Origin: Pseudomonas xantholysinigenes
GTDB lineage: Bacteria > Pseudomonadota > Gammaproteobacteria > Pseudomonadales > Pseudomonadaceae
DNA: 64,000 nucleotides
Direction of reading: 5' to 3'
Assembly (NCBI RefSeq): GCF_014268885.2
Contig: NZ_CP077095.1
Span: 3,105,501 to 3,169,500 of the forward strand
Below the pieces are notes generated by a model. The model was not told the DNA's origin. It worked only from the letters and a program-made list of their open reading frames with translations, and made no database searches. Within the stretch, counting starts at the first letter, position 1. Each line of letters opens with the position of its first letter. Of this stretch, positions 6,490 through 20,940 are shown piece by piece. Both the position numbers and the translations under genes were made by a program.

Positions 6490-7401
6490 CTACAGGGAAC
6501 CGGCCACCAGGAAGATCGGCACGAACGAAAGCACCGTCGACACCGCCACGACGAATGCCATCAAGCGATGATCGCCCCCCTGCTGGGTTGCCAGCACATA
6601 GGAATTGCTGGCGCAAGGCAATACCGAATACAGCAGCACCAGTGTCGCGGCCAGCGGCGGCACCGACCAGGTGCTGATCAGGCCATAGGCGAGCAACGGG
6701 AACAGGCACAAGCGGATGCCGGCGGTCAGCAAGCCGGTTTTGCACAAACGCGCGAACTCTGCGCGCGGAAACTGCAAGGCAGCGCCCACGCAGATCAGGC
6801 TCAGGGGCAATGCCGGTGCCCCCAGCGCCTGCAGCGGCTGGCCCAATGCCGCCGGCAACGACACTGCGCTCAGGTTGAGCGCCAGGCCCAGGCCACTGGC
6901 CAGGATCAACGGATTAAGGCAGACCTTGAGCAGCACCGCCCAGGTCGAACCGCCCCGATTGCCGAATGCCAGCAGCACCACGGTGTTGGAAATGGCCACC
7001 ATATAGGCCACCACCACGGCCGCCACGCCATAGTCCTCGGGGCTGAGCAACTGCGAGGCCACGCCCAGGAAAATGAAACTGTTGAAACGTACCGAACCCT
7101 GCATGATCGAGGTAAAGGTTGCGTGCAACACGCGTCGGTAACGGCATCCCAGCACGACCCCGGCGGTAATCAGCAGCGTCACGCCCCCCAGCACCAGCAC
7201 CGTCGCACGCGCGGCGCTACCCATGGCGCCGGCGCTGCCGATGGTATGAACCAGGTAGGCTGGGAAAAACACCCAATGAGTCAGTTTCTCGGCGCCCGCC
7301 CAGAAGCCGTTGTCTACCCAACCGCAGCGGCGCACGAGCACACCGACCAGAATCAAGATGAACGACGGCGCGATGGCCGCCAAGGCTGTTCCTACGTGCA
7401 T
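6490..7401 (-). CDS. AEC-family (auxin efflux carrier-like) transporter
   Basis: 303-residue membrane protein of the AEC family, with about ten hydrophobic helices and a two-half topology (IAPSFILILVGVLVRR near the N-terminus; ALQALGAPALPLSLICVGAALQ beginning the second half). AEC proteins move small organic acids or amino-acid-like anions, usually outward. It is the last gene of the nine-gene tight operon, 5 nt after the preceding stop. Inference: exporter or self-protection pump for the product of the predicted N-N-bond pathway, or importer of a precursor. It converges on cioB with 37 nt between. Confidence 0.85.
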   Translation of the reverse strand: MHVGTALAAIAPSFILILVGVLVRRCGWVDNGFWAGAEKLTHWVFFPAYLVHTIGSAGAMGSAARATVLVLGGVTLLITAGVVLGCRYRRVLHATFTSIMQGSVRFNSFIFLGVASQLLSPEDYGVAAVVVAYMVAISNTVVLLAFGNRGGSTWAVLLKVCLNPLILASGLGLALNLSAVSLPAALGQPLQALGAPALPLSLICVGAALQFPRAEFARLCKTGLLTAGIRLCLFPLLAYGLISTWSVPPLAATLVLLYSVLPCASNSYVLATQQGGDHRLMAFVVAVSTVLSFVPIFLVAGSL

Positions 7402-7406
7402 GGTGC

Positions 7407-8471
7407 TTAGGCTTCCCTGCTGTTGACGGGCGAACTCGGTGAATCACTATCAATCAGGCCCACCGCCGCCAAGGCTTCGCAGGCCAAGGCTGGGGCAAAG
7501 CGCACCCCCGAGCCGGAAGCACCGACCAGCGCGCAGGCACCGGGCCCTTGGGGCAAACGCACGACCTGCGGCTCGAAATCGCTGCAATAGCTGTCGAATG
7601 CCGCCCGTGGGCGCAACGTGTGAATATCCAGGCCTGGCAGTTCTTCATCGAGGATACGTCGGGCCTGCCGGGTTTCGTGGCTGTGGACGCTCAGGTCGCC
7701 CTCGGCATCGTTGCGCCAATCCTCGGAGGTAATGCTGAGCAACCAGCCATCACCCTGCCGATTACGCATCACGAACGCCTTGCGGCCCGGCAGGTAGATC
7801 ACCCCTTCCGCGGTGTCCGGTGGACGCGGGCCCTGCAGGTCGAAGGCAACGATTTTCTTGATCGAGCCGCCCTGAACCACGCCGTCCAAGGCGTTGCCGC
7901 GCGCCCCTGCGGCAACGATCAGGTGGCGCGCCTGCAACGTCCCGCCAGCCGCTTGCAGGCGCCAACCCGCTGCCTCCCGGCTCACCCGTTCGACCCGGGC
8001 TTCGACCCGTTCAAAGCGCCCGGGCCCAGTCGCCCCGAGCGCCAGGCACGCCCGCACCAGGCCCGGTACGTCGACCGCCAAGGCATGGCCGGCCTGCAGC
8101 AGCGTACCGAGCGTCCGCTGGCCTCGGTAACGGCCCAGCACCTCGGCCAAAGGGCTCGCCACAGAGCGGGCCTCGAACAGCAACGGCCTTGGTGCCTGCG
8201 CCGGGTCATGGACATAGCTGAAGGGCAGCTGGCTTACCCCCGCCCAGCCCAGGCCCAAGGCCTGGTAATGGGCGAACGCCTGCAACGAGCGCCGACGACG
8301 CAAGCCTTCGCCACAGAATGGCGTGACCAGCCCGGCCGACAGGGCGCTGGCGCTGACCCGCCGGCCATCGTCCAGCAGTACGATGGACAGCCCAGGCAGA
8401 CGCCGACGCGCCTCGGCCACCACGCTGGCACCGACAATGCCAGCACCAAGCACCACCAGGTCAGTCGCCAT
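7407..8471 (-). CDS. FAD-dependent amine/amino-acid oxidase (DAO family), first copy
   Basis: 354-residue flavoprotein of the D-amino-acid/glycine oxidase fold. N-terminal FAD motif LVVLGAGIVGASV; the C-terminal GASGSGVRFAPA is the usual second flavin-contacting stretch. No signal peptide, so cytoplasmic. In hydrazine-forming pathways such as s56-p1, a DAO-type flavoenzyme cleaves the N-N-linked lysine conjugate, releasing a hydrazino acid; this protein or its paralogue at 14244-15389 could do that here. The ATG at 8471 has GGTGGG 6 nt upstream; the ATG at 8477 sits directly on that sequence. It overlaps the cupin gene by 11 nt. Enzyme class is firm, substrate is inferred from the cluster. 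Confidence 0.85.
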   Translation of the reverse strand: MATDLVVLGAGIVGASVVAEARRRLPGLSIVLLDDGRRVSASALSAGLVTPFCGEGLRRRRSLQAFAHYQALGLGWAGVSQLPFSYVHDPAQAPRPLLFEARSVASPLAEVLGRYRGQRTLGTLLQAGHALAVDVPGLVRACLALGATGPGRFERVEARVERVSREAAGWRLQAAGGTLQARHLIVAAGARGNALDGVVQGGSIKKIVAFDLQGPRPPDTAEGVIYLPGRKAFVMRNRQGDGWLLSITSEDWRNDAEGDLSVHSHETRQARRILDEELPGLDIHTLRPRAAFDSYCSDFEPQVVRLPQGPGACALVGASGSGVRFAPALACEALAAVGLIDSDSPSSPVNSREA

Positions 8472-8808
8472 GGACATCCCACCAGACCGTGCTGATCACC
8501 AACGGCTCATGGCCATCGTTGTGAATCTGATGCCGGTGATGCGACTCGAACACCAGCACATCGCCCTGAGCCACCCGCAGCGTGCTGCCGTGGTAGTCCA
8601 GCACGCCGCCACCGCTGGCGATCATCCAGCACTCGCGGACCGCATGTATGTCAGGTCGTGACGTGCACTGCGGGGCGACGGTGAACAACCCGCCGCGAAA
8701 CGGTGTGACACCCTCGCCCAGGCTGGCGAAATCAGCCTGATGCAACACCACTCCCGGCACATGACTTTCGGCGGCCATTGGTCGGACCTTTGGATCACTT
8801 GCGTTCAT
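8461..8808 (-). CDS. Single-domain cupin, likely metal-binding partner of the MetRS-like protein
   Basis: 115-residue cupin. Motif 1 is recognisable as DIHAVRECW (His and Glu metal ligands), motif 2 as GDVLVFESHHRHQIHN (histidine-rich). In the known hydrazine synthases (Spb40 type) a zinc cupin is fused to a methionyl-tRNA-synthetase-like domain: the MetRS part activates an amino acid and the cupin helps rearrange an ester to N6-hydroxylysine into an N-N bond. Here the two parts would be separate proteins two genes apart. The gene overlaps the CoA-transferase gene by ATGA and the next gene by 11 nt, implying coupled translation. Alternative: an ordinary small cupin with a sensing or isomerase role. 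Confidence 0.8.
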   Translation of the reverse strand: MNASDPKVRPMAAESHVPGVVLHQADFASLGEGVTPFRGGLFTVAPQCTSRPDIHAVRECWMIASGGGVLDYHGSTLRVAQGDVLVFESHHRHQIHNDGHEPLVISTVWWDVHGD

Positions 8809-9974
8809 GCCTGAACCTCTCTGCGAGATGGCGACAGCGCCTTGAGAATGGCCGCTCGGTCCTGGTCCAGCGCAGGCGCTGCGCGCCGTTGCCGCGGGTC
8901 CGGGGCATCGGAGATCTTGATCGGCGAGCCGACCAGGCGGTAACGGCCCACCTGCGGGTCATCCACATCGATCAACATGTTGCGTTCGGCCACTTGAGGG
9001 TGCGCCACCGCCTGGTCGACGCGGTTGATCGGCCCGGCAGGCAAGCCGACCGCCGCGAAGTGCTCGGTCCAATGGCTGACCGAGTGCGCGGCGAGGGCAT
9101 CATCGAGCCGCCGCGCCAGCAGGGCTTCGTTGTCCTTGCGCGCCTCCCCGTTGGCAAACAGCGGGTCCTCGGCCATCTCGGGCCGACCGATGGCCTGGCA
9201 CAACAGGGCGAACAGCTTGTCGTTGCCAGCGGCGATGACCAGCCCGCCATCCTGTGCCTGGTAGACGCCAAATGGCGGCGCAATGGCCGGCCTGTAGCTG
9301 CCTACCGGGCCGGTTACCTCACCGGTGGCGAAATAGCGCCCGATGAAATACTCCATCAGCGCCAGCTGGCAGTCGAACATGGCAATGTCGACCTTCGCGC
9401 CAAGCCCGCTCTGCTGGCGCTTGAGCAGCGCCATCAGCAGCCCGCAGGTGAGGAACAGGCCGGCGCTGATATCGCCGATCGACACCCCTACCCGCACCGG
9501 GGAGCGCCCCGGCTCGCCGGTGACGCTCATGATCCCGCCCATGCCCTGGACGATCATGTCGTAGGCCCGCCGCTGGGAGGACGAACCGGTATGGCCGAAG
9601 CCCGAGGCCGCACCGTAGATCAGGCGTGGGTAACGGGCATGCAGGGTGTCCCAGCCGTACCCGAGTTTCTCCATGGTGCCGGGGCGGAAGTTCTCGGTGA
9701 GCACGTCGGCCTGTTCGAGCAACTGCTCGAAGATGGCGCGGTCCTCGGGCTGCTTCAGGTCCAGGGCAATGCTTTCCTTGCCACGGTTGAGCGAGGAAAA
9801 GTACGCCGACTTCTCGCCGAACCACGGGCCATAGGCGCGGGCATCGTCACCCTTGCCGGGTTGCTCGACCTTGATCACCCGCGCACCGTGGTCGGCAAGC
9901 AGCATGGTGCAGAATGGCCCGGCCAATACCCGGGTCAGGTCGATGATCAGCAAACCTTCGAGTGCGGGCTTCAT
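8805..9974 (-). CDS. CaiB/BaiF family CoA-transferase
   Basis: 389-residue class III CoA-transferase. Start MKPALEGLLIIDLTRVLAGP is the family signature, and Asp139 in RAYDMIVQGMGG fits the aspartate that carries the acyl-enzyme anhydride. It moves CoA between carboxylic acids. ATG at 9974 forms an ATGA overlap with the stop of the MetRS-like gene; a longer upstream frame has no homologous sequence. Inserted between the MetRS-like and cupin genes of one tight operon, it probably makes or uses a CoA thioester in the same pathway. Donor and acceptor cannot be told from sequence. Confidence 0.88.
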   Translation of the reverse strand: MKPALEGLLIIDLTRVLAGPFCTMLLADHGARVIKVEQPGKGDDARAYGPWFGEKSAYFSSLNRGKESIALDLKQPEDRAIFEQLLEQADVLTENFRPGTMEKLGYGWDTLHARYPRLIYGAASGFGHTGSSSQRRAYDMIVQGMGGIMSVTGEPGRSPVRVGVSIGDISAGLFLTCGLLMALLKRQQSGLGAKVDIAMFDCQLALMEYFIGRYFATGEVTGPVGSYRPAIAPPFGVYQAQDGGLVIAAGNDKLFALLCQAIGRPEMAEDPLFANGEARKDNEALLARRLDDALAAHSVSHWTEHFAAVGLPAGPINRVDQAVAHPQVAERNMLIDVDDPQVGRYRLVGSPIKISDAPDPRQRRAAPALDQDRAAILKALSPSRREVQA

Positions 9975-11542
9975 GACAGGGCCTCCAGGCTGGCGGGAGC
10001 GCGGACCGCCACGGCGAACGGCGCGGGCAGGCCACCAGGCAACGGCGTGGTGCACTGGCCGAATGCCTCACGGCTGACCTCACCGACATGGCCAAGGGCG
10101 TGCCACAGCGCCAGCGACAGGCTCGGCAGCAAGGGATAAGCCAACAACGCCAGGCCCTTGGCCCACCAGTAACGGTCCAGTTCATCGGCCAAGGTGTCGA
10201 AGCGTCTCTCCCAGCGCGCAATGCTCTGGCTCAACGCTCGTGGGTCGAAATGGGCGAAGGACAGCACCTGGGCCTGTTCGTCACAGGCCGCCATGACCGG
10301 CGCCAGCCATACCTGACTCGTCTGGCGCGGCGCGGCCACGGCGGCCAGCGCCGAGCCTGCGCGCGTAAGCAGGCCAGCATAGTCCTCGCTCAGGAAACGT
10401 TCGAAGTCGGCGCGACGGAAGTCCGTGCGCCCATGGATCGGGCTGGTGCTGGCCAGGAAGTAGCGCAATGCATCGGACGGGATGCGCCCTTCGCGGGCAA
10501 TGTCCTCGACCCAGATCGCCCAGCCCTGGCTGGTGGAGAACTTGCGGCCCTCCAGGGTATAGAAATGGTTGATGAGGAAATGGTCGAACGGCTTGGAAAT
10601 ACCATCGGCCATGGCCATCGCCTGGATGCTCACCAGGTGCGACACGCTGTTGTCGATACCAAAACCATTCACCGTGATCACCGGCGAATCGCAATCGAAG
10701 GGGTTGCACGCCAGGCCCGCGGCGCGGGCGAAGCAGTCACCGACAAAACGCACCGCGCCGAACAGCAGGCCATGGCCGAACAAGGTGCGTGCCTGGCCGC
10801 GCACCTCGCAGGGCAGGCCCCAGCCTGCATGGTTGGTGACCCGGACCTGGGGCGATGGCCGACGGACATGGCGCCTGGCGATATCAAGGAAGACCTCCGG
10901 TGTCTGGGTACCCTGCAACTGCTCGATCAGCGCCTCGGGCTGGCGGATCTCGAAGAACAGGTTGTCCAGCGCCCGCCCGGGGACCTCCTCGCCCCAGCGT
11001 GCGCGGGGAGCGCGCACTTCATCCGGCTCGAAGTGCGCGCCGCAGTCTTCGCAGAAGAATCCGGAAACAGCCGCCTCGCATGCCGGGCAGTGGCCGGTCA
11101 GGTAGCTGCCGCTGACGAACTGCTGACGCGACTGCGACCATGGCATCTGCTCCTCGACGCAGCGAATGGCGTGTTCGCCGTCAAGGCGCTCGACCAGATC
11201 GCGGTGCGCGGCCAGGTAGGCATCTCGGTGCTCCGCGGCCAGAGGGTCGATGAACAGGTCGATCTGCACATTCATGTAGGCCAGGTCGTCGATGATGCCG
11301 GCACAACTCTCCTGGGCCAACGCAGCCGGGTCGACCTCGGCCTGCTGGGCCCGCAAGGGTATGTAAGAATCGAACGGGTCGCTGGCACAGACAATGCTGG
11401 CCTTGTGGCCGTCCCGACGCAGGTGGCGTGCCAGGATGTCCAGGTTCAGGTAGGGGCCGGCAACGTGTCCCAGGTGCAGCCGGCCATTGGGCGCGGGCAT
11501 GGCCGGGACCAGCAGGTACTGCTTCGCCGAGGTGTCAGTCAT
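9971..11542 (-). CDS. Methionyl-tRNA-synthetase-like protein, predicted N-N-bond forming component
   Basis: 523 residues with a class I synthetase catalytic core: HLGH (23-26) as the HIGH motif, a zinc knuckle with Cys152, Cys155, Cys164 and Cys167, and KFSTS (334-338) in place of KMSKS. About 185 residues of helical C-terminal domain follow. The position in a biosynthetic operon beside an N-hydroxylase and a cupin argues against housekeeping metG. Known hydrazine-forming enzymes use exactly this fold, fused to a cupin, to activate an amino acid and couple it to an N-hydroxy-amine. ATG at 11542 follows AGGGAG by about 7 nt and overlaps the ATP-grasp stop by 8 nt. The amino acid used (glycine and glutamate are known elsewhere) is not predictable here. 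Confidence 0.85.
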   Translation of the reverse strand: MTDTSAKQYLLVPAMPAPNGRLHLGHVAGPYLNLDILARHLRRDGHKASIVCASDPFDSYIPLRAQQAEVDPAALAQESCAGIIDDLAYMNVQIDLFIDPLAAEHRDAYLAAHRDLVERLDGEHAIRCVEEQMPWSQSRQQFVSGSYLTGHCPACEAAVSGFFCEDCGAHFEPDEVRAPRARWGEEVPGRALDNLFFEIRQPEALIEQLQGTQTPEVFLDIARRHVRRPSPQVRVTNHAGWGLPCEVRGQARTLFGHGLLFGAVRFVGDCFARAAGLACNPFDCDSPVITVNGFGIDNSVSHLVSIQAMAMADGISKPFDHFLINHFYTLEGRKFSTSQGWAIWVEDIAREGRIPSDALRYFLASTSPIHGRTDFRRADFERFLSEDYAGLLTRAGSALAAVAAPRQTSQVWLAPVMAACDEQAQVLSFAHFDPRALSQSIARWERRFDTLADELDRYWWAKGLALLAYPLLPSLSLALWHALGHVGEVSREAFGQCTTPLPGGLPAPFAVAVRAPASLEALS

Positions 11543-12824
11543 GGCGCGCTCCCTGGTCATTGGCGACCTCGACGACGACCTCTTCGGCCAACCGCTCCAA
11601 CACATCGCAGATATCATCCTGCAACGCGCACTGGGCGATCACGTAGGCAATTTCGTAGGCCTTGAAACGCTCGGCAGGTCGTGCCATCTGCGCGCCAACG
11701 CCCGCCACCACCTGGAGAAAACGGGTCTCGCCATGGCGCCACAGCCGCTCGAAGCCCTCCACGCGGGTGACCTGTCCGGTGCGCGGCGGCATGATCACCC
11801 GTTGCCCGGCACGACAGGTGGCGCTGCCGATCCGATCGGCGCAACCGTCCGGGATCACGCCGCAGGCCAGTTGCAACACGGCCTGGTATGGCGAGAAACC
11901 GAGCACGCTGTTGGGGATCAGGTGCGAGTTGATGAACTCCCCGCCCAGGCGGCCGCCGATTTCGAGAATCTTCGGCCCTTGCGCGGTCACCATCAGGTCG
12001 ACATGGAAACCGCACCAGTCGATGCCCGTGGCCGTGACGGCGCGGCGCACCAGGTCGCAGATGCGATCCTGCAGCGCCGCGTCAAGACGCGAAGGCGTGA
12101 TGTTCTCGTACTGGATCGGGATACTGCGGTCGAACTGCTTGTCGATGATCGCATTGATCACCACCCGGCCATCGGCGACCAGGCCAGAGATGGAATGCTC
12201 CGACCCCACCAACTGCTCCTCGAGCAGGGCGTGCTGACCATAAAGGGCGTACATCTCCCCTTTGTCCGGGGTGTTGTAGGCACGAAATTCACGATAGATC
12301 GCCAACGCATCACAGCCTTGCTCGAGCATGAAGATGCCGCGGCTGCCAGAGTTGCCCGCCGGCTTGAGCAGCGCAGGCAGACCGACGTGCTGCAAGCCTT
12401 CGAGGAAAGCCTGCTCATCGCTGACCACGGCATAGCGAGGGTTGGCGTTGGCCACCGCGTCGAGGCAGCGCCGTGTGCGCGCCTTGTCGCGGACGTTGGC
12501 AGCGGCCTCGGCGCTGCTGCCAACCAACCCCAGGCGCTGGCTCAGGCGGCTGGCCAACTCCACTTCGAGGTCTTTCCAGGCGACCACCCCGGACAGGGTG
12601 ATGCGCTGTTCGTCCAGGTAGCGCAGGATCGCGTCCTGGGCCGCGTCGTAGTCCCCCAGGCGGGTGACGATCACACCGGCACAGCCCATGGAGCGAAATG
12701 GCTCGGGAGTCGGCGTGGCCACCAGCACGTTGTAGCCCAGCTCATGGCCCGCGGCGATTTCAGCGATCCGCTCGCCAGCCAGGGCGCGGGTGTCGAGGTA
12801 CAGAATATAAGGTGCTTCAGACAT
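11535..12824 (-). CDS. ATP-grasp ligase
   Basis: 429-residue ATP-grasp enzyme, joining a carboxylate to an amine via an acyl-phosphate. Seen: PALLKPAGNSGSRGIFML (ATP lysine and glycine-rich loop), LLEEQLVGSEHSISG, and the metal-binding EIGGRLGGEFINSH. Overall order resembles amino-acid ligases of the carbamoyl-phosphate-synthase-like and BacD type. I place the start at 12824: AAGGA is 7 nt upstream, whereas the ATG at 12839 has no ribosome site. The gene begins 11 nt after the N-hydroxylase stop and overlaps the MetRS-like gene. Likely role: activating an intermediate of the predicted hydrazine pathway or adding an amino acid to it; ATP-grasp enzymes also occur in pyrazofurin/formycin-type N-N clusters. 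Confidence 0.85.
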   Translation of the reverse strand: MSEAPYILYLDTRALAGERIAEIAAGHELGYNVLVATPTPEPFRSMGCAGVIVTRLGDYDAAQDAILRYLDEQRITLSGVVAWKDLEVELASRLSQRLGLVGSSAEAAANVRDKARTRRCLDAVANANPRYAVVSDEQAFLEGLQHVGLPALLKPAGNSGSRGIFMLEQGCDALAIYREFRAYNTPDKGEMYALYGQHALLEEQLVGSEHSISGLVADGRVVINAIIDKQFDRSIPIQYENITPSRLDAALQDRICDLVRRAVTATGIDWCGFHVDLMVTAQGPKILEIGGRLGGEFINSHLIPNSVLGFSPYQAVLQLACGVIPDGCADRIGSATCRAGQRVIMPPRTGQVTRVEGFERLWRHGETRFLQVVAGVGAQMARPAERFKAYEIAYVIAQCALQDDICDVLERLAEEVVVEVANDQGARHD

Positions 12825-12835
12825 GCTCGGATCCT

Positions 12836-14194
12836 TCATTCAGTCAGTTGATGGTCGTGCAACAGGCAGCCAGGCTCGGCCAGCTCCAGGCCCCATTCCA
12901 CAAGGCCCGGCGGCGTGCTGACGTCGTACAGCGGTTGGCCCAGCAAACGGTTGGCGATCTTGCCGCTGCGCCAGGCGGCCAGGCTCAGGTTGGGGTCGGC
13001 GATGCCGCGGATGTGCCGAGCAGCGTTCTGGAAGAACAGCCGTGGGTGGTCGGCCCGCGACCACTTCACCGCATAGTCGTGGTCAAGCTCGGGCAGGCCA
13101 TTGCGCGTTGCCATCTCGAAACGCAGCGGTTGCAACGCGGCCGGCATCTGGAACTCGGACCCCGTGGCCAGCAGCACCAGATCAGCCTCCAGCTGACGGC
13201 TACCCGTGGCACTGTCGATGCGCAGCGCCAGGCCATCGTCCAGTTGCCGCAGCGTTTGCAGTGTCGCCCCCGGCAACAAGCGGCAGAACGCCTTGCGCCC
13301 TTCGATGTAGGTCACTTCGTACAATCGCCTGTAGATGCTCTCGAGCAGTGGCTGGACCACGCCGTCGCTGGCCATGTGCTGCTGGGCCAGCGCGGCCTGG
13401 CGTTGCTCGGCGGACAGGCCGAAGAAGTGGTCGCTGTAGCCAGGCACGAACCATTCGTTGACGAACGGCGAATCATCCATCGGCAGAAAGTTGCCGCGCC
13501 GGCTGACCCAGACCAGCGAGGTCGGTGCCGCGGATTCCGGCAGGTTGAGCATCATCTGCATCAGCTCGGCCCCACTCTGCCCGCCGCCCACCACCACCAC
13601 GCGCTTGCCGGCCACGGGCGGGGCATCGGTGATAAAGCGCGAAGAGTGCATCACGGCTGACCCCAGGCACGCCTGCGCGCAACTGGGAATACTCGGCCGA
13701 TGCCCGGTACCGACTACCAGGTTGGGGGTTCGCGCGACACCCCTGGCATGGGTCACCAACCACTCGCTGCCCTCGCGGGTGACACGCAGCACCTCATTGC
13801 CAAAGGTCAGGTTCGACAGCGAACGACAGACCCACGCCATGTACTGTTCGAACTCCTTGCGCCGCACCGTGGGAAAACGGGCATTGAGAAATGCGTAGAG
13901 CCGCTCGGTCTTCTTCAGGAAAGCAATGAACGAATACGGGCTGCATGGATCGGCCAGGGTGACCAGGTCCTTGAGAAAGCTGGTGGTGAGCGAGGAATTC
14001 ACATGCATCATGCCTTCGTGCCAGCGAAAATCCGCGCGGCGCTCGAAGAACATGCTCCGAAAGCCTTTGCACGGTTGCAGCAAGGCGGCCAGGCTCAGGT
14101 TGGCCGGGCCAATGCCCAGACCGATGACATCGAAGCGTTCGACATGACGCGACACGGCCTTCCCGGCCATCGACGGGATTTCATGGGTACTCAT
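12836..14194 (-). CDS. SidA/IucD/PvdA-family amine N-hydroxylase
   Basis: 452-residue FAD/NADPH N-monooxygenase of the lysine N6- / ornithine N5-hydroxylase family. FAD motif GLGIGPANLSLA (25-36), NADPH motif VVVVGGGQSGAELM, and a late LLATGSEF (ATG motif). In siderophore loci such enzymes sit with NRPS or IucA/C genes; none is here. Instead it lies with MetRS-like, cupin and FAD oxidase genes, as the lysine N6-hydroxylase does in s56-p1, triacsin and pyrazofurin-type pathways. Expected product N6-hydroxylysine, or a hydroxylated relative if the neighbouring aminomutase acts first. AGGAG lies 8 nt before ATG 14194; upstream frame to 14329 is rejected. A 49-nt gap follows the previous gene. 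Confidence 0.9.
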   Translation of the reverse strand: MSTHEIPSMAGKAVSRHVERFDVIGLGIGPANLSLAALLQPCKGFRSMFFERRADFRWHEGMMHVNSSLTTSFLKDLVTLADPCSPYSFIAFLKKTERLYAFLNARFPTVRRKEFEQYMAWVCRSLSNLTFGNEVLRVTREGSEWLVTHARGVARTPNLVVGTGHRPSIPSCAQACLGSAVMHSSRFITDAPPVAGKRVVVVGGGQSGAELMQMMLNLPESAAPTSLVWVSRRGNFLPMDDSPFVNEWFVPGYSDHFFGLSAEQRQAALAQQHMASDGVVQPLLESIYRRLYEVTYIEGRKAFCRLLPGATLQTLRQLDDGLALRIDSATGSRQLEADLVLLATGSEFQMPAALQPLRFEMATRNGLPELDHDYAVKWSRADHPRLFFQNAARHIRGIADPNLSLAAWRSGKIANRLLGQPLYDVSTPPGLVEWGLELAEPGCLLHDHQLTE

Positions 14195-14243
14195 TGGAGT
14201 CACTCCTGCAAGCTTCAGGAAAGGGCTGCGAGCCCTGGCGGCC

Positions 14244-15389
14244 TCAATAGCGTTGCGGCGGTTCGCCCTCGCCCACGGTGAATGCGGGCGTGGCGTTGGC
14301 GAGTGCCATGTGGGCCAGTTGTCGGCCACAACTCACCGCCGTGGCGATGCCGCTGCCGCAGTAACCACCGCCCCAGCACACCGGGCCACTGCGCCCCGTG
14401 CGCGGCAGGCCATCAGGGGTGAAACCAAGGCTGCCGGACCACACCTGGCGCACCTCGATATCACCCAGCGACGGGAAGTAGCCGACCAGACGCTGGCGCA
14501 ACGCCGCCACCACGGCCTGCGGCTCGGCCTCGAGGGGCACCAGGCCCAGGCGACTGCCGAACAGCAAGCGTCCCTGATGCACACGGAAATAATCCTTGTC
14601 GGCGGTCGCCGTGCCATAGACCCGTGGTTGCCGGCTGATCAGCTGCAGCGCCGCGGTGGCGAGTGGCGCGCTTTCGAACAGGTGGGTCTGGTGCAGCGTC
14701 AGGGGCTCGCGGGCAGCGGCCATCGACAGCGACCAGGCCTCTTCGCTGGCGATCAGCACTCGCGCTGTGCTGATCCGCCCCGCCGCCAGCACCAGGTCGA
14801 CCGCGTCGAGCCCAGGCTCGAGCGCCAACACCGGGGTTGCATACTGGATGCACACACCAAGGGACTCGGCATGGTGACGCAGGGCAAGTAGCAGTCGCGC
14901 CGGCTCGATCAAGGCGAAATGCTCATTGAGCAACCCGCCCATCAGGCCTTGCGCGCCAGTCTGGCCGGCGACCTGGTGGGCATCCAGCCAGAGCACCCCA
15001 CCACCGAGCAGCGCCTGGGCATCGAGGCCGCGTTGCCTGAGCGTCGACGCCGAAGTCTCATCCAGCGCCAGGGTGATATGCCCAGGCTGCGTCCAGGCGC
15101 AGTCATAACCGAACGCCTCGACCTGTTCCTTGAGCGCGCGCACCGGAGCCAGCGTTGCCTGCAGACGTTGCGCCGGATCGTGGTCGCCGTGAGCCGTCGC
15201 AGGCAACGCCGGCGGCATGACCGCCACCGAGCCGAAGTTGAACGCACTGGCGTTGTCGCCCCATTGCCCACGGTCGAGGACGCGCACCCGCGCGCCCTGC
15301 CTTGCCAGTTCGATGGCCGCGCTCAGGCCGCAATAGCCAGCACCGATGATCACTGCGTCGTTGGCCGCTGACCGGCCCTGAGCACTCAC
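14244..15389 (-). CDS. FAD-dependent amine oxidase (DAO/OrdL family), second copy
   Basis: 381-residue flavoprotein with N-terminal VIIGAGYCGLSAAIELA and C-terminal GGGYCGSGIATAVSCG, closest in layout to gamma-glutamylputrescine oxidase/OrdL-type oxidases. It starts with GTG at 15389, overlapping the KamA-family stop as GTGA. The operon thus has two amine-oxidising flavoenzymes, clearly different in sequence; one may carry out the oxidative cleavage that frees the hydrazino acid in known pathways, the other a further oxidation (for example hydrazine to hydrazone or azo). Which does which is open. Confidence 0.87.
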   Translation of the reverse strand: MSAQGRSAANDAVIIGAGYCGLSAAIELARQGARVRVLDRGQWGDNASAFNFGSVAVMPPALPATAHGDHDPAQRLQATLAPVRALKEQVEAFGYDCAWTQPGHITLALDETSASTLRQRGLDAQALLGGGVLWLDAHQVAGQTGAQGLMGGLLNEHFALIEPARLLLALRHHAESLGVCIQYATPVLALEPGLDAVDLVLAAGRISTARVLIASEEAWSLSMAAAREPLTLHQTHLFESAPLATAALQLISRQPRVYGTATADKDYFRVHQGRLLFGSRLGLVPLEAEPQAVVAALRQRLVGYFPSLGDIEVRQVWSGSLGFTPDGLPRTGRSGPVCWGGGYCGSGIATAVSCGRQLAHMALANATPAFTVGEGEPPQRY

Positions 15390-16807
15390 GCCTCACCTCC
15401 CGTAGAAGCCTGCGCCATGAAGCGCCGGTAATCGGCCTCGAAGAAGAACTCCGCTTGCCCCTCGGGCGGCTGCAACTGGTCCAGCCAGCAGGCCGTTTCG
15501 GAGTACCGCGCCAGGAACGGCCTGCCAAGCCAACGCGAATCGCGCGCCTGGATGAACTTCAGCAGGAAGTGGCGCTGTCCATGCAGTTCGAGGGTACCGC
15601 TGACCTCGACCTTGCCAGGCCCCGCGCTCATGGACGGGCCCCGCGCAGTCTTGGCCAGCCCCGACACCGACTCGATAGCCTCGCTGTAGATCGACAGCGC
15701 GCGGGCCAGGGGTATCTGGAAGTAGTCGCGCGGCCCGGTATCGCGCTCGACGAACATGTAGTAGGGCACTATGCCCAGGCGCACTTGCTCTTCCCAATTG
15801 CGCTTCCAGGTCGCCGCGCTGTCGTTGATGTGCTTGAGTACCGGGCCCTGCGCACGAATGACAATACCCAGTTGCTGCAGCGCGGCCACCGCTTCCTGGG
15901 CGATCGGCGTGGACAGCTCGCGCCAATGATTGAGGTGAGCCATGAGCGCGACATGCTTGCCACTGTCCACCAGGCGCCGCAGCACGGCCATGAGCTGCGG
16001 TGTATCGACGTCGCTGACGAAACGGTAGGGCCAGTAGGTCAGTGCCTTGGTGCCGATCCTGATGGTGGTGACATGGCGCAGGGCCGGGTCCAGGAAAGGT
16101 TCCAGGTAGCGCTTGAGGTGGGCCGCGGTCATCACCAGCGGATCGCCGCCGGTAAACAGAACGTCGGTGACTTCGGGGTGGCGCGCCAGGTAGCGGTGCA
16201 ACTGTTCACCATCGTTGGAGGCAAACTTCAGCGACTTGTCGCCAATGAACTGCGGCCAGCGGAAACAGAAGGTGCAATAGCTGTGGCAGGTCTGCCCGTG
16301 GCTGGGGAAGAACAACACCGTCTGCGGATACTTGTGCTGCACCCCGTGCAAACGCTCGCCATCGAGCAGCGGCGCATTGAGCTGCTGCTGGGCCGGATGC
16401 GGGTTCATGCCGTCGCGCAAGCGTTGCACCAAAGTGTCCAGCGCCTGCTCGCCAGCACCGCTGCGCACGCAATGGGCGAGCCGCTCGAGATCCTCGGCGT
16501 CGAGCATCTGGGCCTGGGGGAAGGTCAGGCGGAAGATCGGGTCGTTTGGCACATCATGCCAATCGATCAGGTGCTTGATCACATAGTCGTTGACCTTGAA
16601 CGGCAGCACCCGCGCCACCAGGCTGATCGCCTCCATCAACTGCGGTGCATGCTTGACCAGTTGCGGAATTTGCCCGAGCCGCTGGTGGCTGAACACGCGC
16701 ATGGGTGGAGATGCCAACTGCGTTCGGCGCACGGTGGGCATCAGGTTGTAGGTTTCATTGGCTGAAACCTTGGTTATCAGGTTGTCCATCACCAGTTCCG
16801 ACCTCAT
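15386..16807 (-). CDS. KamA-family radical SAM amino-acid 2,3-aminomutase
   Basis: 473-residue radical SAM/PLP enzyme of the lysine 2,3-aminomutase family: cluster cysteines Cys174, Cys178, Cys181 (CHSYCTFC), TGGDPLV after strand 1, and the PLP lysine Lys399 in AGPGKVEV. By-eye alignment with clostridial lysine aminomutase puts Arg355 and Ser392 where that enzyme has the two aspartates that hold the lysine side-chain amine; glutamate 2,3-aminomutase, as I recall, has Lys and Asn there. So the substrate may be acidic or otherwise unlike lysine. It is the first gene of the nine-gene operon. ATG at 16807 has no clear ribosome site; ATG at 16789 is the alternative. Confidence 0.88.
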   Translation of the reverse strand: MRSELVMDNLITKVSANETYNLMPTVRRTQLASPPMRVFSHQRLGQIPQLVKHAPQLMEAISLVARVLPFKVNDYVIKHLIDWHDVPNDPIFRLTFPQAQMLDAEDLERLAHCVRSGAGEQALDTLVQRLRDGMNPHPAQQQLNAPLLDGERLHGVQHKYPQTVLFFPSHGQTCHSYCTFCFRWPQFIGDKSLKFASNDGEQLHRYLARHPEVTDVLFTGGDPLVMTAAHLKRYLEPFLDPALRHVTTIRIGTKALTYWPYRFVSDVDTPQLMAVLRRLVDSGKHVALMAHLNHWRELSTPIAQEAVAALQQLGIVIRAQGPVLKHINDSAATWKRNWEEQVRLGIVPYYMFVERDTGPRDYFQIPLARALSIYSEAIESVSGLAKTARGPSMSAGPGKVEVSGTLELHGQRHFLLKFIQARDSRWLGRPFLARYSETACWLDQLQPPEGQAEFFFEADYRRFMAQASTGGEA

Positions 16808-16974: not shown

Positions 16975-17862
16975 CTAGCGGTCCTGGCCGGCATAGGCGC
17001 GTTCGAGCTGGTCGAACCGTGCCTTGTCCACCAACCGCTGGCGCTCGGCGAACGGCACGACCAGGGCTGGGTCTTCATCCAGGCGGCCGTGCTCGAGCAA
17101 GGTCTTCAGGGCGCGTTGCATGCCCAGCGCCGCGCTCTGCAAACCGGCGTTGGCGTACAGCACGATGCCGTAACCCAGGTCGGCGAGCTCGGCCCGATCC
17201 AGTGTCGGGGTCTTGCCGCCGATCACGATGTTGATCAGGTTCGGCGTGCGGAACAGCCCAGGCAGGCGGCGAATGTCCCCCAGGCGCTCGGTGGCCTCGA
17301 TGAACAGGATGTCCGCCCCGGCCTCCACATAGCGATGGGCGCGCTCGATGGCCGACTCCATGCCTTCCACCGCGCAGGCATCGGTGCGGGCAATGATCAT
17401 CAGGTTCGGATCTTCACGGGCATCCACCGCAGCCTTGAGCTTGCCGACCATCTCGGCGCTGCTGATGACCTCCTTGCCGTTGAAGTGCCCACATTTCTTC
17501 GGCAACACCTGGTCCTCGAACTGAATGGCGTCGGCGCCGCTGCGTTCAAGCACGCGCACCGCATGGCGCACGTTCAGCGCGTTGCCAAAGCCGGTGTCGG
17601 CATCGACGATCAGCGGCAGCGCGACGGCATCGCGCACACGGGCGGTATGGCCGGCCATCTCGTCCAGGCCAACGAACCCCAAGTCGGGCAGGCCCAGGGA
17701 CATGTTGGTGACCCCGGCACCACTCAGGTACAAGGCCTGGAAGCCGATATCACTGGCAATCCGGGCGCTCAGGGCATTGAACACGCCGGCCACCAGCAGC
17801 CCCTGGCGCGCCTCGACCTGGCGACGGAACGCTGCTCTGCGCTGCAAGCTTGAATCAGTCAT
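16975..17862 (-). CDS. Isocitrate lyase / PEP mutase superfamily enzyme
   Basis: 295-residue alpha/beta barrel protein. VDADTG (Asp87, Asp89) is the Mg site and KKCGH (Cys124) the catalytic loop of the carbon-carbon-cleaving lyases (2-methylisocitrate, 2,3-dimethylmalate lyase) rather than of phosphonate mutases. It likely splits a 2-hydroxy-dicarboxylate to pyruvate or glyoxylate plus another acid, in the cytoplasm. GAGGTG precedes ATG 17862. It lies 9 nt after the amidohydrolase gene, forming a two-gene operon with a divergent LysR. Either a separate small-acid catabolic unit or a precursor supplier for the neighbouring cluster; the terminator-like hairpin favours separate control. Confidence 0.87.
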   Translation of the reverse strand: MTDSSLQRRAAFRRQVEARQGLLVAGVFNALSARIASDIGFQALYLSGAGVTNMSLGLPDLGFVGLDEMAGHTARVRDAVALPLIVDADTGFGNALNVRHAVRVLERSGADAIQFEDQVLPKKCGHFNGKEVISSAEMVGKLKAAVDAREDPNLMIIARTDACAVEGMESAIERAHRYVEAGADILFIEATERLGDIRRLPGLFRTPNLINIVIGGKTPTLDRAELADLGYGIVLYANAGLQSAALGMQRALKTLLEHGRLDEDPALVVPFAERQRLVDKARFDQLERAYAGQDR

Positions 17863-17871
17863 GGAAACACC

Positions 17872-18789
17872 TCATTGAGTGAACTTGAACAGGTCCTGGG
17901 CGGTGTGGCACAGCACATCCTGGCGCTGCCGCGGGTCCGGCACCCAGTCAGCCAGGGCCGCTTTCGCCGCGGCAAAGTCGACCCACTGGCGATGCTGGGT
18001 ATGCGGCCAGTCGCTGCCCCACAGCAGCCGTGCGCTGGAAAAAGCCCGCAATAGCAAGCGGCTGGCGCGTTCACCGAACACATTCCCGGCGCCGTGCGCA
18101 TCGTTCATGGCGCAGCGGTAGGCGCCAGACAACTTGACCCACACCTGCCCGCTGGCACCCTGCTCCAGCAGGTACTGGAAACCAGGGTCGGCGATATCCA
18201 GGCGTGGGTCCGGGCGGCCAAAGTGGTCGACCACCACCTTGCAACCACTGCGCAGCATGGCGCCCAACAAGTACGGCAGGTCCGCCGCCTGACGCTGCAC
18301 TTCGATATGCCAGTCCAGCGCCTTGATCCGTGCCATGAAGCGCTGCCAGCCTGGCTGCGCCAGGTCGGGCAACGCGGTGCCGAGCAGGTTCAGGCGCACG
18401 CCGACCACGCCGCATTGGGCCAATGCCTCGAGCCGCGCCTCGTCGATCCCGGGCTCGACCACCACCACACCACGGAAACGCTTGGGATAGCGCGCCAGCG
18501 CCTCCAACAGAAAGGCATTGTCGGTGCCCAGGAAGCTCGGTTGCACCAGAACCCCATGGGAAACCCGGTTGGCCGCCAGGTGCCGGGCATAGTCGTCCAC
18601 TGTGGCGTTGTAGTCGGGGGTATGGCGCCGCTCGCGGACCATGGGCAGGCCTTGCACGAACACGTGGGCATGACCATCGATGGCGCTGACCGGCGCAACC
18701 GCCTGGGCATGCCAGCGATCGGTGAAGCTGTCGCCAGCGGCGGCGGCCTCGCCAAGCGGTGATCTGATGATCTCGACCTCACTGTCCAT
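17872..18789 (-). CDS. Amidohydrolase-family (LigI-like) metal hydrolase
   Basis: 305-residue TIM-barrel hydrolase of the COG3618 type, related to 2-pyrone-4,6-dicarboxylate lactonase. The N-terminal DGHAH (His40, His42) and C-terminal LLWGSDWPHTQH give the metal and catalytic residues. Such proteins open lactones or hydrolyse C-C/ester bonds of carboxylated rings. AAGGAG lies 6 nt before ATG 18789; the frame continues upstream to 18894 without homology. First gene of the pair with the lyase: plausibly the hydrolase makes an open-chain hydroxy-acid which the lyase then cleaves. Divergent LysR is the likely activator. Confidence 0.85.
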   Translation of the reverse strand: MDSEVEIIRSPLGEAAAAGDSFTDRWHAQAVAPVSAIDGHAHVFVQGLPMVRERRHTPDYNATVDDYARHLAANRVSHGVLVQPSFLGTDNAFLLEALARYPKRFRGVVVVEPGIDEARLEALAQCGVVGVRLNLLGTALPDLAQPGWQRFMARIKALDWHIEVQRQAADLPYLLGAMLRSGCKVVVDHFGRPDPRLDIADPGFQYLLEQGASGQVWVKLSGAYRCAMNDAHGAGNVFGERASRLLLRAFSSARLLWGSDWPHTQHRQWVDFAAAKAALADWVPDPRQRQDVLCHTAQDLFKFTQ

Positions 18790-18905
18790 CGCATGCTCCT
18801 TGTGGCCCAACACCCAAAGCATTGGATCCAATCCATGGCGCCATCCTATGAAAAGATTGAATTGATATCTATTATGCGAACAATCAAAAAACATAACGTG
18901 AGCGT
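18790..18905. promoter_or_regulatory. Divergent LysR-type control region with several dyads
   Basis: 116 bp between the amidohydrolase and lysR genes. It contains two perfect palindromes three bases apart, ATTGGATCCAAT (18821-18832) and ATGGCGCCAT (18835-18844), and an AT-rich segment in which ATTG and CAAT half-sites flank about 20 bp just upstream of lysR. T-N11-A style sites in such AT-rich stretches are where LysR regulators bind. Exact promoters are not clear. Confidence 0.5.
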
Positions 18906-19799
18906 ATGGAAACCCGACACCTGCGATACTTCCTGGCCATTGCCGACAGCGGCAGCATTACCCGCGCCGCCGAACAGCTGGATATCGCCCAGCCTGCCCT
19001 CAGCCAAGCCTTGGTACGTATGGAAAAAGAACTGGGGGTCAAGCTGTTCGAGCGTTCGCGGCGCGGCGCGCTACTGACCCCTGCCGCCACCGCCATCATC
19101 GATGACCTGCGCGCCAGCCTGGCCAGAATCGACGCGGCCACCGAGCGCGCCCGCGCCATCGGCGCCAAGCGCGCAGGAAGGCTGATCATTGGTTTCGTCT
19201 CCACGGCATTGTTCGGCACCCTGCCCCGCGCCCTCGACCGCATGCAGGCGCGCTACCCCGGTGTCGATGTGGTGCTGCGCGAGATGAGCAACGCTGAACA
19301 GGCATTGGCCCTGCAACGTGGCGAAATCGACATCGGCCTGCTGCACACGCCGGTGTCGATCCAGGGCAACATGCGCGAACAGCGGATCAACCAGGATCCA
19401 CTGATCGCGGTGCTGCCCAGCGACTACCCACTGGGCGACGACGGCAAGGTCGGCCTGGCGCAACTCGCGGCCACGGGGCTGGTGTGGTTCCCCGAACAGC
19501 AACTGCCGCTGATCCGCAATGCCATCCTCAGCGCCTTTCGCCGCAGTGGCCACCCTATCGAGATCATCCAGGAAGCCAACCGCACCCTGACCGTGGTGGC
19601 CTATGTTGCAGCCGGACGGGGTGTCTCGCTGCTGCCCGCGACCGTGCAAGCCTTGCAATTCGAAGGCACCCGCTACAGTGAGATCCGCGACGGCGCCGAC
19701 CTGCCGAGTTTCGAACTCAGCGCCCTCTGGCCGGCGCAGTCCAGGATGACCATGGCCGACCACTTCGCCGAACTGCTGTTCGAGCCAGGCCCAGAATGA
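18906..19799 (+). CDS. LysR-family transcriptional regulator
   Basis: 297 residues. Classic N-terminal HTH (METRHLRYFLAIADSGSITRAAEQLDIAQPALSQALVRMEKELG) and a periplasmic-binding-protein-like effector domain. Divergent from the amidohydrolase-lyase pair, so probably their co-inducer-dependent activator and its own repressor. Whether it also controls the N-N cluster just downstream of that pair cannot be told; it is the only regulator gene near it. GTGAG provides only a weak ribosome site before ATG 18906. Confidence 0.93.
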   Translation: METRHLRYFLAIADSGSITRAAEQLDIAQPALSQALVRMEKELGVKLFERSRRGALLTPAATAIIDDLRASLARIDAATERARAIGAKRAGRLIIGFVSTALFGTLPRALDRMQARYPGVDVVLREMSNAEQALALQRGEIDIGLLHTPVSIQGNMREQRINQDPLIAVLPSDYPLGDDGKVGLAQLAATGLVWFPEQQLPLIRNAILSAFRRSGHPIEIIQEANRTLTVVAYVAAGRGVSLLPATVQALQFEGTRYSEIRDGADLPSFELSALWPAQSRMTMADHFAELLFEPGPE

Positions 19800-19896: not shown

Positions 19897-20940
19897 TCAG
19901 GCGCCTTGTGACACGGCCTCATGCCCGACGCTGGCGCTGTTGATCAACGGCCCATAGCGCCGACTGAACTCCTGGTTGTAAGGCACATGGTCCTTGTTGA
20001 CCCCGCTGTCCCAATTGACCGACCAGGTCATCAGCCCCTTGATCGACACCCCCTTGGCGTACAACCGCTTGAAGGCATTGGTCACGGCCGCCGGGTTGCT
20101 CACGTAGCCGGTCGCCGCGGCGTCAACATTGGCCGGCAGGCCAATCAGCAGCTTGTCGGCCGCTATGCGGGTGAAACCGCGAGTGCCCTTGGCCAGGCTT
20201 TCGGTCAGGTAGAAGAGAAAGTCCTCCTTTAGCGCCTCGTTGTTCTGGGCAATCCAGGCGCCCTTGCCGTTGTTGGCCTCCTCGACCCACAGGCCGTCGC
20301 CGCCCTGGTTGTAGAACTGCGGCGCGATGAAGTCGTAGTAGCCCTCCAACGCCTTGAGGTAGTCCACATAGCGCCCGGCGCTGGTCAGGTAGGGAAACTC
20401 CGGCGCCATGCTGATGATGAAGTGCTTGCCCTGGGTTTTGTAGTGGTCCTTGACCAGCTTCAGCGCGGCAGGCAACACGGTCTTGTTACTGGCGAAATCA
20501 ATCGCGCTCTGTTCAAGATCGATGTCCAGCCCGTCGAAACCGTAGGTTTCCACCAGACGGATGATTTCATTGGCCAGTGGCTGCTCGTGGCCCTTGTTCA
20601 AGGCGATATGCGCATCGGCGCCGCCCAGGGACATCAACACCGCCCTGCCCTGGCTGTTCAGCACGCCGACCTGGCGACGGAACTCGGCGTCGGACAGGTT
20701 GTACGGCTTGAACGTCGGGATGCCGCTGCCTTTCATGAAGGCCACTGCCACCACGTTGTAGTCGCGCGGCACCTCCTCCAGGCTCATGTTGGCGAACTGC
20801 CCACGCTGGTAGCCGTCCGCGGGGCCGGCCGGCCAGTTGTGCCAGTAGCCCATGAGGATCTTCTTGCCCTCCAGGCTGGGCATCGGCGCGGCGGCATCGT
20901 CGTACGATGCCTTGTGCTGAGTAAAGTCAATGTTCGACAT
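19897..20940 (-). CDS. GH18 chitinase without signal peptide
   Basis: 347-residue family 18 glycoside hydrolase; DGLDIDLE (Asp136, Asp139, Asp141 and acid catalyst Glu143) is intact, and MAPEFPY and MTWSVNWD complete the substrate cleft. It cleaves chitin internally. The N-terminus (MSNIDFTQHKASYDDAAAP) is hydrophilic, with no Sec or Tat signal and no carbohydrate-binding module, although chitin is extracellular. AAGGA 8 nt upstream fixes the start. Follows the LPMO gene by 37 nt in the same operon. Like P. aeruginosa ChiC, it may leave the cell by an unusual route; the upstream LexA box suggests release by SOS-linked lysis. Confidence 0.92.
   Translation of the reverse strand: MSNIDFTQHKASYDDAAAPMPSLEGKKILMGYWHNWPAGPADGYQRGQFANMSLEEVPRDYNVVAVAFMKGSGIPTFKPYNLSDAEFRRQVGVLNSQGRAVLMSLGGADAHIALNKGHEQPLANEIIRLVETYGFDGLDIDLEQSAIDFASNKTVLPAALKLVKDHYKTQGKHFIISMAPEFPYLTSAGRYVDYLKALEGYYDFIAPQFYNQGGDGLWVEEANNGKGAWIAQNNEALKEDFLFYLTESLAKGTRGFTRIAADKLLIGLPANVDAAATGYVSNPAAVTNAFKRLYAKGVSIKGLMTWSVNWDSGVNKDHVPYNQEFSRRYGPLINSASVGHEAVSQGA

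Follow-up and report, generated by a model that had tools for sequence, protein, structure and literature searches.

The window analysed here, 64,000 nucleotides of Pseudomonas xantholysinigenes (contig NZ_CP077095.1, positions 3,105,501 to 3,169,500), carries nine minus-strand genes, running from 16807 down to 6490, that overlap at GTGA or ATGA or over longer stretches, or are separated by short gaps. Judging from the families, motifs and relatives of the encoded proteins, we consider it likely that this conserved operon builds and exports a metabolite with a nitrogen–nitrogen (N–N) bond, using a hydrazine synthetase split into a methionyl-tRNA synthetase (MetRS)-like protein and a cupin. That the operon would form an N–N bond is the part of this reading that we hold with the highest confidence.

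Read from its upstream end, the operon begins with a predicted KamA-family aminomutase dependent on radical S-adenosylmethionine and pyridoxal phosphate (PLP) (15386..16807, 473 residues), whose family assignment lies below the family's curated cut-offs. A GTGA overlap leads to DAO1 (14244..15389), an amine oxidase of the flavin adenine dinucleotide type with a DAO domain and the second oxidase of the module. After a gap of 49 bp comes a SidA/IucD/PvdA-type, predicted amino-acid N-hydroxylase (12836..14194, Lys_Orn_oxgnase domain); its listed open reading frame (ORF) is over-extended to 14329, and residue 46, at 14194, is the likely start. ATGA joins it to an ATP-grasp ligase (11535..12839) with an ATP-grasp_4 domain and the L-amino acid ligase C-terminal domain LAL_C2. 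The ligase gene overlaps by eight bases, counted from the likely start at 11542 of an ORF over-extended to 11617, the gene for the MetRS-like subunit of the predicted split hydrazine synthetase (9971..11542; tRNA-synt_1g domain, motifs HLGH and KFSTS). ATGA junctions then connect this gene to a class III (CaiB/BaiF) CoA-transferase (8805..9974, CoA_transf_3; ORF over-extended to 10055, likely start 9974), hereafter CaiB, and CaiB to the predicted cupin subunit (8461..8808, Cupin_2). The cupin gene overlaps that of a second DAO-domain oxidase, DAO2 (7407..8477), and 5 bp further lies an AEC-family (Mem_trans) permease, the predicted exporter (6490..7401). The original prediction had described nine tightly packed genes on one strand, and all of them are present at 6490-16807 with the families it named; as it also held, neither a nonribosomal peptide synthetase (NRPS) nor a polyketide synthase (PKS) domain occurs among the nine. 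It departs from the locus on one point, since its model systems carry cupin and MetRS in one protein and the two are here separate genes with CaiB between them. A promoter and terminator scan of the region gave no usable signal.

The predicted hydrazine synthetase pair and its flavoenzymes

The genome, a single 5.6-Mb contig, holds one copy of the MetRS-like gene and, elsewhere, a canonical MetRS to which the MetRS-like protein is 26% identical. In a 22-row MetRS tree, the eight canonical enzymes form one group (100/100) and the six operon proteins another, the latter sitting with proteins from Robbsia and from two genomes of the genus (G031 and G324), all of which are encoded beside N-hydroxylase and cupin genes. 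KMSKS, found in 8/8 canonical enzymes, is replaced by KFSTS in 6/6 operon proteins and in seven of the eight from other hydrazine loci; among 33 MetRS-like homologues, KFSTS occurs in 27 and KISTS in 2, with the pattern unmatched in 4. The canonical residues Y15, W253, A256, P257 and Y260, which we take to be the methionine pocket, are substituted in the alignment in all six operon proteins. With separate 100/100 groups, KFSTS and an altered pocket, the protein stands apart from tRNA-charging MetRS, as the original prediction demanded of it.

This evidence bears directly on the possibility that the protein is simply a second, perhaps antibiotic-tolerant, methionyl-tRNA synthetase. In favour of that idea, the window protein scores 632 bits against NCBIfam NF008863, an equivalog named 'methionine--tRNA ligase' with a cut-off of 551. 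The proteins of B. lata (880) and G324 (628) also exceed this cut-off, but the true MetRS of the genome reaches just 111 bits, so the name looks wrong and is misleading for these MetRS-like proteins. Pfam (E 0.1) detects both an anticodon and a tRNA-binding domain in the canonical MetRS and neither in the window protein. This feature alone does not split the groups, however: the S. lavendulae fusion protein described below hits the anticodon model, and a weak hit to a different anticodon model (E 0.015) comes from the G324 protein. With KMSKS, the anticodon domain and the methionine pocket all missing, and the family score as it is, we rejected a duplicate MetRS, which we regard as extremely improbable. 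Separately, the Robbsia MetRS-like protein lies above the cut-off of NF008861 (949 versus 633).

The best solved match of the window cupin is 5UQP (E 5e-19), the structure of RHS1. PMC8664883 describes RHS1 as a zinc cupin that uses the ester made by a MetRS-like protein to form an N–N bond and is inactive when E69 is varied. The Glu of HEVRE is residue 72 of the 5UQP chain, which we equate with E69 on the assumption of three extra residues. D53, H55, E59 and H93 are common to the window cupin and RHS1; H55, E59 and H93 are invariant in 12/12 aligned cupins, and position 53 is Asp, His or Glu. The putative ligands given for PyrN are His50, His52, Glu56 and His90 (PMC8664883). At position 53, the operon cupins and RHS1 have Asp and five aligned cupins have His, as does PyrN (His50), so that Asp replaces the first His in the window cupin just as in RHS1. 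We therefore predict a zinc cupin with the catalytic Glu and metal-site residues of RHS1 and PyrN. The relationship to N–N-forming cupins on which the original prediction depended thus holds up, RHS1 being the best match and the catalytic Glu and two His being kept.

According to PMC8664883, the MetRS-like and cupin parts may be two standalone enzymes. They also occur joined: a single-chain Chitinophaga protein combines a MetRS-like domain (34% identical to the window protein) with a cupin containing DIHEVRE, and the MetRS-like protein of a Streptomyces lavendulae plasmid locus (L046) carries a cupin and a C-terminal carrier domain. Azaserine enzymes have the same cupin/MetRS/carrier architecture, as outlined in PMC11705231, and this likeness, together with a neighbouring NRPS, suggests that the S. 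lavendulae locus is of the azaserine type.

The N-hydroxylase is 38% identical to the enzyme of that S. lavendulae locus. In a 15-row tree, the operon N-hydroxylases group with hydrazine-locus enzymes from G031, G324, Rhizobium, Streptomyces and Mesorhizobium (92/90) and apart from both the PvdA-like enzyme of the same genome, so named from its motifs, and a third family member; three Burkholderia rows of this tree are over-extended ORFs of 620-884 residues. The third SidA-family N-hydroxylase of the genome lies at G000:C1:1907074-1908078 (L055). The window enzyme and PvdA share FLKDLV and DDSPFVNE-type motifs, in which the Lys of FLKDLV and the Asn of PFVNE presumably bind the α-amino acid part of the substrate; the motif patterns matched neither site in 5/15 rows, and statements on motifs rest on the matched rows. 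Both residues are missing from the three best solved matches, namely a monooxygenase of unstated substrate, a putrescine hydroxylase and an enzyme of the desferrioxamine pathway. An amino acid is thus the favoured substrate, and a diamine N-hydroxylase was rejected. Because a presumed azaserine-type enzyme is among its relatives, lysine is the likely amino acid, and we consider lysine a reasonably probable nitrogen donor for the pathway.

As a member of the siderophore hydroxylase superfamily encoded together with a permease, the N-hydroxylase could instead be part of an operon for a hydroxamate siderophore or metallophore, with the MetRS-like gene only as a passenger. The nine genes, however, include no acyltransferase, NRPS or NRPS-independent siderophore synthetase, or TonB receptor domain, the enzyme stands apart from the other two family members of the genome, and MetRS-like and cupin genes accompany the N-hydroxylase in all six operons examined. 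We rejected a siderophore operon on the lack of matching domains and on the distance from the PvdA-like enzyme, and consider it very unlikely.

DAO2 matches the oxidases of four other hydrazine loci (S. lavendulae, Rhizobium, G031 and G324) at identities of 28-32%, 28% for S. lavendulae, within a common DAO fold. Its predicted role is C–N cleavage, like that of Spb39. For DAO1, the closest named families are the L-pipecolate oxidase AmaA and others, all below cut-off, and the closest solved protein is a glycine oxidase. The two-oxidase loci of G031 and G324 encode a remote counterpart (25-27% identical), weak evidence given how common the fold is. Those two loci hold an N-hydroxylase, a cupin, a MetRS-like protein and two oxidases without the remaining operon genes, which suggests that these five genes form a core.

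L-amino acid ligases are the nearest relatives of the ATP-grasp protein. The nearest solved relative of CaiB is YfdE, and an Asp is present at the expected active-site place; we take this candidate, the Asp of VSIGDISAG, to be the catalytic residue.

Distribution of the operon and its neighbouring genes

All nine genes recur in the same order in 4/4 Burkholderia loci, those of B. lata, B. arboris, B. puraquae and B. cenocepacia. These came from a scan of named genomes that returned five loci, the fifth, in a Clostridiaceae metagenome-assembled genome (MAG), holding only a distant MetRS match. Identities between window and Burkholderia proteins range from 41-43% for DAO2 to 74-76% for CaiB, with 66-68% for the KamA ortholog and 60-61% for the AEC permease. 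The order is also the same in a B. arboris replicon (L041) and in a further genome of the genus (G125), and it is this recurrence that argues against a chance arrangement.

Co-occurrence across the genus, which the original prediction had proposed to map, proved restricted: 4 of 398 genomes match the MetRS-like protein at E 1e-50, the window's own genome and G125 with this operon type and G031 and G324 with the distant type. A class-wide sample gave a match in 2/369 genomes, the own genome and G487 (37%). A search among 5.8 billion proteins, in which the 7995 candidates sharing most words were scored, returned 33 clusters at E 1e-60, 7 of them with at least 55% identity; one Burkholderia cluster comprises 149 member sequences, and the nearest named relative is from a Pseudomonas MAG (76%). 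Within the samples searched, the operon type is rare. KamA matches at E 1e-60 occur in 47 of the 398 genus genomes. Short KamA loci checked in 20 genomes had the operon neighbours only in the own genome (G000) and G125, and seven larger KamA stretches from six of the other 45 genomes were without them.

Other hydrazine-synthetase-like loci differ in composition. Two genus genomes contain compact N-hydroxylase/cupin/DAO/MetRS-like/DAO loci without tailoring genes (L032 7816-13361 and L033 6844-12425), and the G487 locus (L065) has a DAO, a cupin, an N-hydroxylase, the MetRS-like protein (37%) and, by sequence impression, a possible PLP decarboxylase. A plasmid-wide search with the MetRS-like protein (E 1e-30) matched 19 records, 7 of which were inspected. 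Plasmid loci of this kind were seen in Robbsia, Deinococcus, Pantoea, Mesorhizobium and Rhizobium rhizogenes (L042-L045, L047), where the partners vary and include a diaminobutyrate (DABA) aminotransferase, ATP-grasp proteins and dioxygenases.

Upstream of the operon, and beyond the interval originally described, lie an isocitrate/methylisocitrate-lyase superfamily protein (16975..17862, minus strand; KKCGH motif, 77-79% identity in Burkholderia), an amidohydrolase (17872..18894, minus strand; PF04909) and a divergent LysR-type regulator (18906..19799, plus strand; 69% in B. arboris L041, 95% in G125). The three genes stand next to the operon in both the window and G125. The Burkholderia loci (4/4) have the amidohydrolase and lyase beside it, here accompanied by two MFS genes, and carry another amidohydrolase gene after that for the AEC permease; L041, the one Burkholderia record reaching far enough, also shows LysR. 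Just past LysR, the window has a glycosyl hydrolase family 18 protein (19897-20940), which adjoins LysR in G125 too.

The position of the amidohydrolase and lyase, directly upstream and on the operon's strand in two genus genomes and four Burkholderia species, could mean that they and LysR act inside the pathway, for instance by supplying a C2-C4 acid, and that the whole is one 11-gene pathway. Against this, the lyase and the KamA gene are 167 bp apart in the window, and a MFS gene of about 1.4 kb lies between them in 4/4 Burkholderia loci. Moreover, plasmid pSBC2-1 of Caballeronia sp. SBC2 (L059 5755-11251) carries a LysR–MFS–amidohydrolase–lyase–MFS unit with 57-77% identity in a stretch of 18.9 kb that has no MetRS-like, cupin, N-hydroxylase or KamA match and only a distant CaiB relative (36%), and the plasmid-wide MetRS-like search at E 1e-30 returned no Caballeronia record. 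Because this unit stands without hydrazine genes in the stretch examined, we rejected the three genes as an integral part of the pathway, a role we consider improbable, and treat them as a likely separable LysR–amidohydrolase–lyase module linked to the operon, which may serve in its control or deal with a by-product.

Proposed pathway, competing readings and known systems

On the reading that the nine genes build and export an N–N-bonded metabolite, the N-hydroxylase would first convert lysine to its side-chain N-hydroxylamine, a step for which an amino-acid type of substrate is supported. The MetRS-like protein would adenylate a second amino acid and hand it to the N–OH group as an ester, which the zinc cupin would rearrange to form the N–N bond. 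DAO2, like Spb39, would cut a C–N bond and free the hydrazino acid, and DAO1 might perform a second oxidation or cleavage. The KamA-type enzyme would move an amino group from C2 to C3, probably not on free lysine, after which the ATP-grasp ligase could couple the β-amino acid and the hydrazino acid to a peptide-like hydrazide. CaiB would transfer CoA to a carboxylate, and the AEC permease would export the product. A β-aminoacyl hydrazide as that product is a tentative proposal. More speculatively, Pseudomonas and Burkholderia may make β-aminoacyl hydrazides, an antibiotic class like negamycin, by another N–N chemistry in which the split MetRS/cupin pair replaces the heme enzyme NegJ, the divergent Arg-pocket aminomutase supplies an acidic or N–N-modified β-amino acid, and ATP-grasp joining needs no NRPS; we think this doubtful.

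Several observations weigh against parts of this scheme. CaiB and DAO1 are without a firm place in it. In the MetRS tree, for which the program issued long-branch warnings, the hydrazine-locus proteins of Deinococcus, Pantoea and Mesorhizobium fall on the canonical side of the midpoint. The pocket of the MetRS-like protein is unlike that of the azaserine-type protein (H for W253), and glycine therefore cannot be assumed as the second amino acid. In the N-hydroxylase tree, the 92/90 fork lies under the program's star level, the Deinococcus and Pantoea hydrazine-locus enzymes join the PvdA-like enzyme of the genome (100/100) and the Robbsia enzyme joins its third copy (100/99), which suggests that hydrazine loci recruited more than one kind of N-hydroxylase. 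Separation from siderophore hydroxylases, the third trial the original prediction had set itself, is accordingly borne out for the window enzyme relative to the PvdA-like protein of its own genome and does not extend to the Deinococcus and Pantoea enzymes. The oxidases of the Deinococcus and Pantoea loci are not among the matches of DAO2 at E 1e-3.

To these points the aminomutase adds its own. It keeps CxxxCxxC (174-181) and the FR that follows, along with a PLP-lysine-like motif in which K399 is the candidate PLP-lysine from the motif. It shares these with lysine 2,3-aminomutase (LAM, 2A5H), the Arg two residues after CxxxCxxC being presumably R134 of LAM. It differs from LAM in that R355 aligns to Asp293 in an ungapped stretch and S392 presumably stands at Asp330. 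This Asp pair, we assume, binds the lysine side chain. Glutamate-type aminomutases have a basic residue at the Asp293 place, and since the window enzyme has Arg there, its substrate is more likely an acidic one, or in any case something other than lysine. An ordinary LAM yielding β-lysine was rejected on R355, and with the lysine-binding pair missing, β-lysine as the product of this enzyme lacks support. The aminomutase also belongs to a very large family: 7999 candidates were scored, all pass E 1e-20, and the search, with 120 of them listed, gave no substrate assignment. Of the 120 homologues listed, 113 have Arg at the R355 place, the pattern being unmatched in the other 7; at the S392 place, 110 have Ser, 6 have Thr, 4 have Val or Ile and none has Asp, so that R355 and S392 are a trait of the large family rather than of this operon. 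Other genomes of the genus hold members of the same KamA subfamily within small gene sets, for example beside an asparagine-synthetase-like and an MFS-like gene (L036 and L037, names by sequence impression) or, in L037, L038 and L040, beside a gene whose protein carries YEV(F/Y)A(I/L)R close to its N-terminus.

The same hydrazine module might alternatively end in a hydrazone, a diazo compound or an N–N heterocycle such as a pyrazole or pyridazine. In that case DAO1 would oxidise the hydrazine, CaiB would activate an acid, and KamA and ATP-grasp would serve a side chain. Other MetRS/cupin pathways finish as diazo, triazene, pyrazole or pyridazinone, according to the pathways treated in PMC11705231 and PMC13061610, and the two oxidases also occur together in the G031 and G324 loci. 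None of the nine genes, however, has a carrier protein, NRPS, PKS, diiron oxidase or P450 domain; steps of these types are used, or have been proposed, in the azaserine, N-nitroglycine and Dob routes (PMC13061610 for part of these). Such an outcome is conceivable, if somewhat less likely than not. At its core, N–N-bond biosynthesis as originally predicted is supported, and none of the three contrary results it had named was found.

Among known systems, the closest in its synthetase is the Rhodococcus jostii RHS1 locus, described in PMC8664883 with a standalone MetRS-like protein, a zinc cupin and an N6-lysine hydroxylase; the window cupin and RHS1 have DxHxxxE and a later His in common. That locus was found through its N-hydroxylase and a saccharopine-dehydrogenase-like gene, whereas the candidate releasing enzyme of the window is a DAO-type oxidase, and the window has an aminomutase, an ATP-grasp ligase, CaiB and the AEC permease beyond the RHS1 locus as described there. 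By description, the s56-p1, triacsin, azaserine and N-nitroglycine systems (Spb38-40, Tri26-28, Azs, Nng) share the N-hydroxylase, the MetRS/cupin synthetase and the DAO-type oxidase, but they have cupin–MetRS fusions and NRPS, PKS or carrier steps where the window has split genes and no carrier. The por cluster of Pseudomonas orientalis (Por9/Por11) likewise pairs a hydrazine synthetase with an N-hydroxylase in a pseudomonad, and its section in PMC11705231 mentions no aminomutase/ATP-grasp/CaiB set. The negamycin pathway (neg, Kitasatospora purpeofusca), as described in PMC12154649, resembles the operon in combining a hydrazino acid source, a β-amino acid enzyme and an ATP-grasp protein. Its N–N bond is made by the heme enzyme NegJ rather than a MetRS/cupin pair, and it has β-lysine formation where the window aminomutase is without the lysine-binding Asp pair. 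By family assignment, not by comparison with neg sequences, each of the nine window genes matches a family other than the NegJ/KinJ-type heme enzyme.

Hydrazine synthetases of the MetRS/cupin kind are already known from PMC8664883 and PMC11705231, with split examples and one from Pseudomonas orientalis among them, and the pathways named in the latter review are mostly from actinomycetes. In the open-access literature searched, to the extent of the passages concerned, we found no description of an aminomutase, an ATP-grasp ligase, CaiB and a second oxidase together with a MetRS/cupin synthetase.

N–N natural products are uncommon and often bioactive, and here a Gram-negative genome has a compact candidate pathway with no carrier protein, intact in two genera, that the database name 'methionine--tRNA ligase' conceals from genome mining. 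If our reading is true, the operon would provide a split hydrazine synthetase with a distinct amino acid pocket and a case of an aminomutase in a MetRS/cupin pathway that can be put to the test. It would also offer a check on the suggestion, raised in the preprint PMC12154649, that heme and MetRS-type systems are perhaps interchangeable as sources of hydrazino acids.

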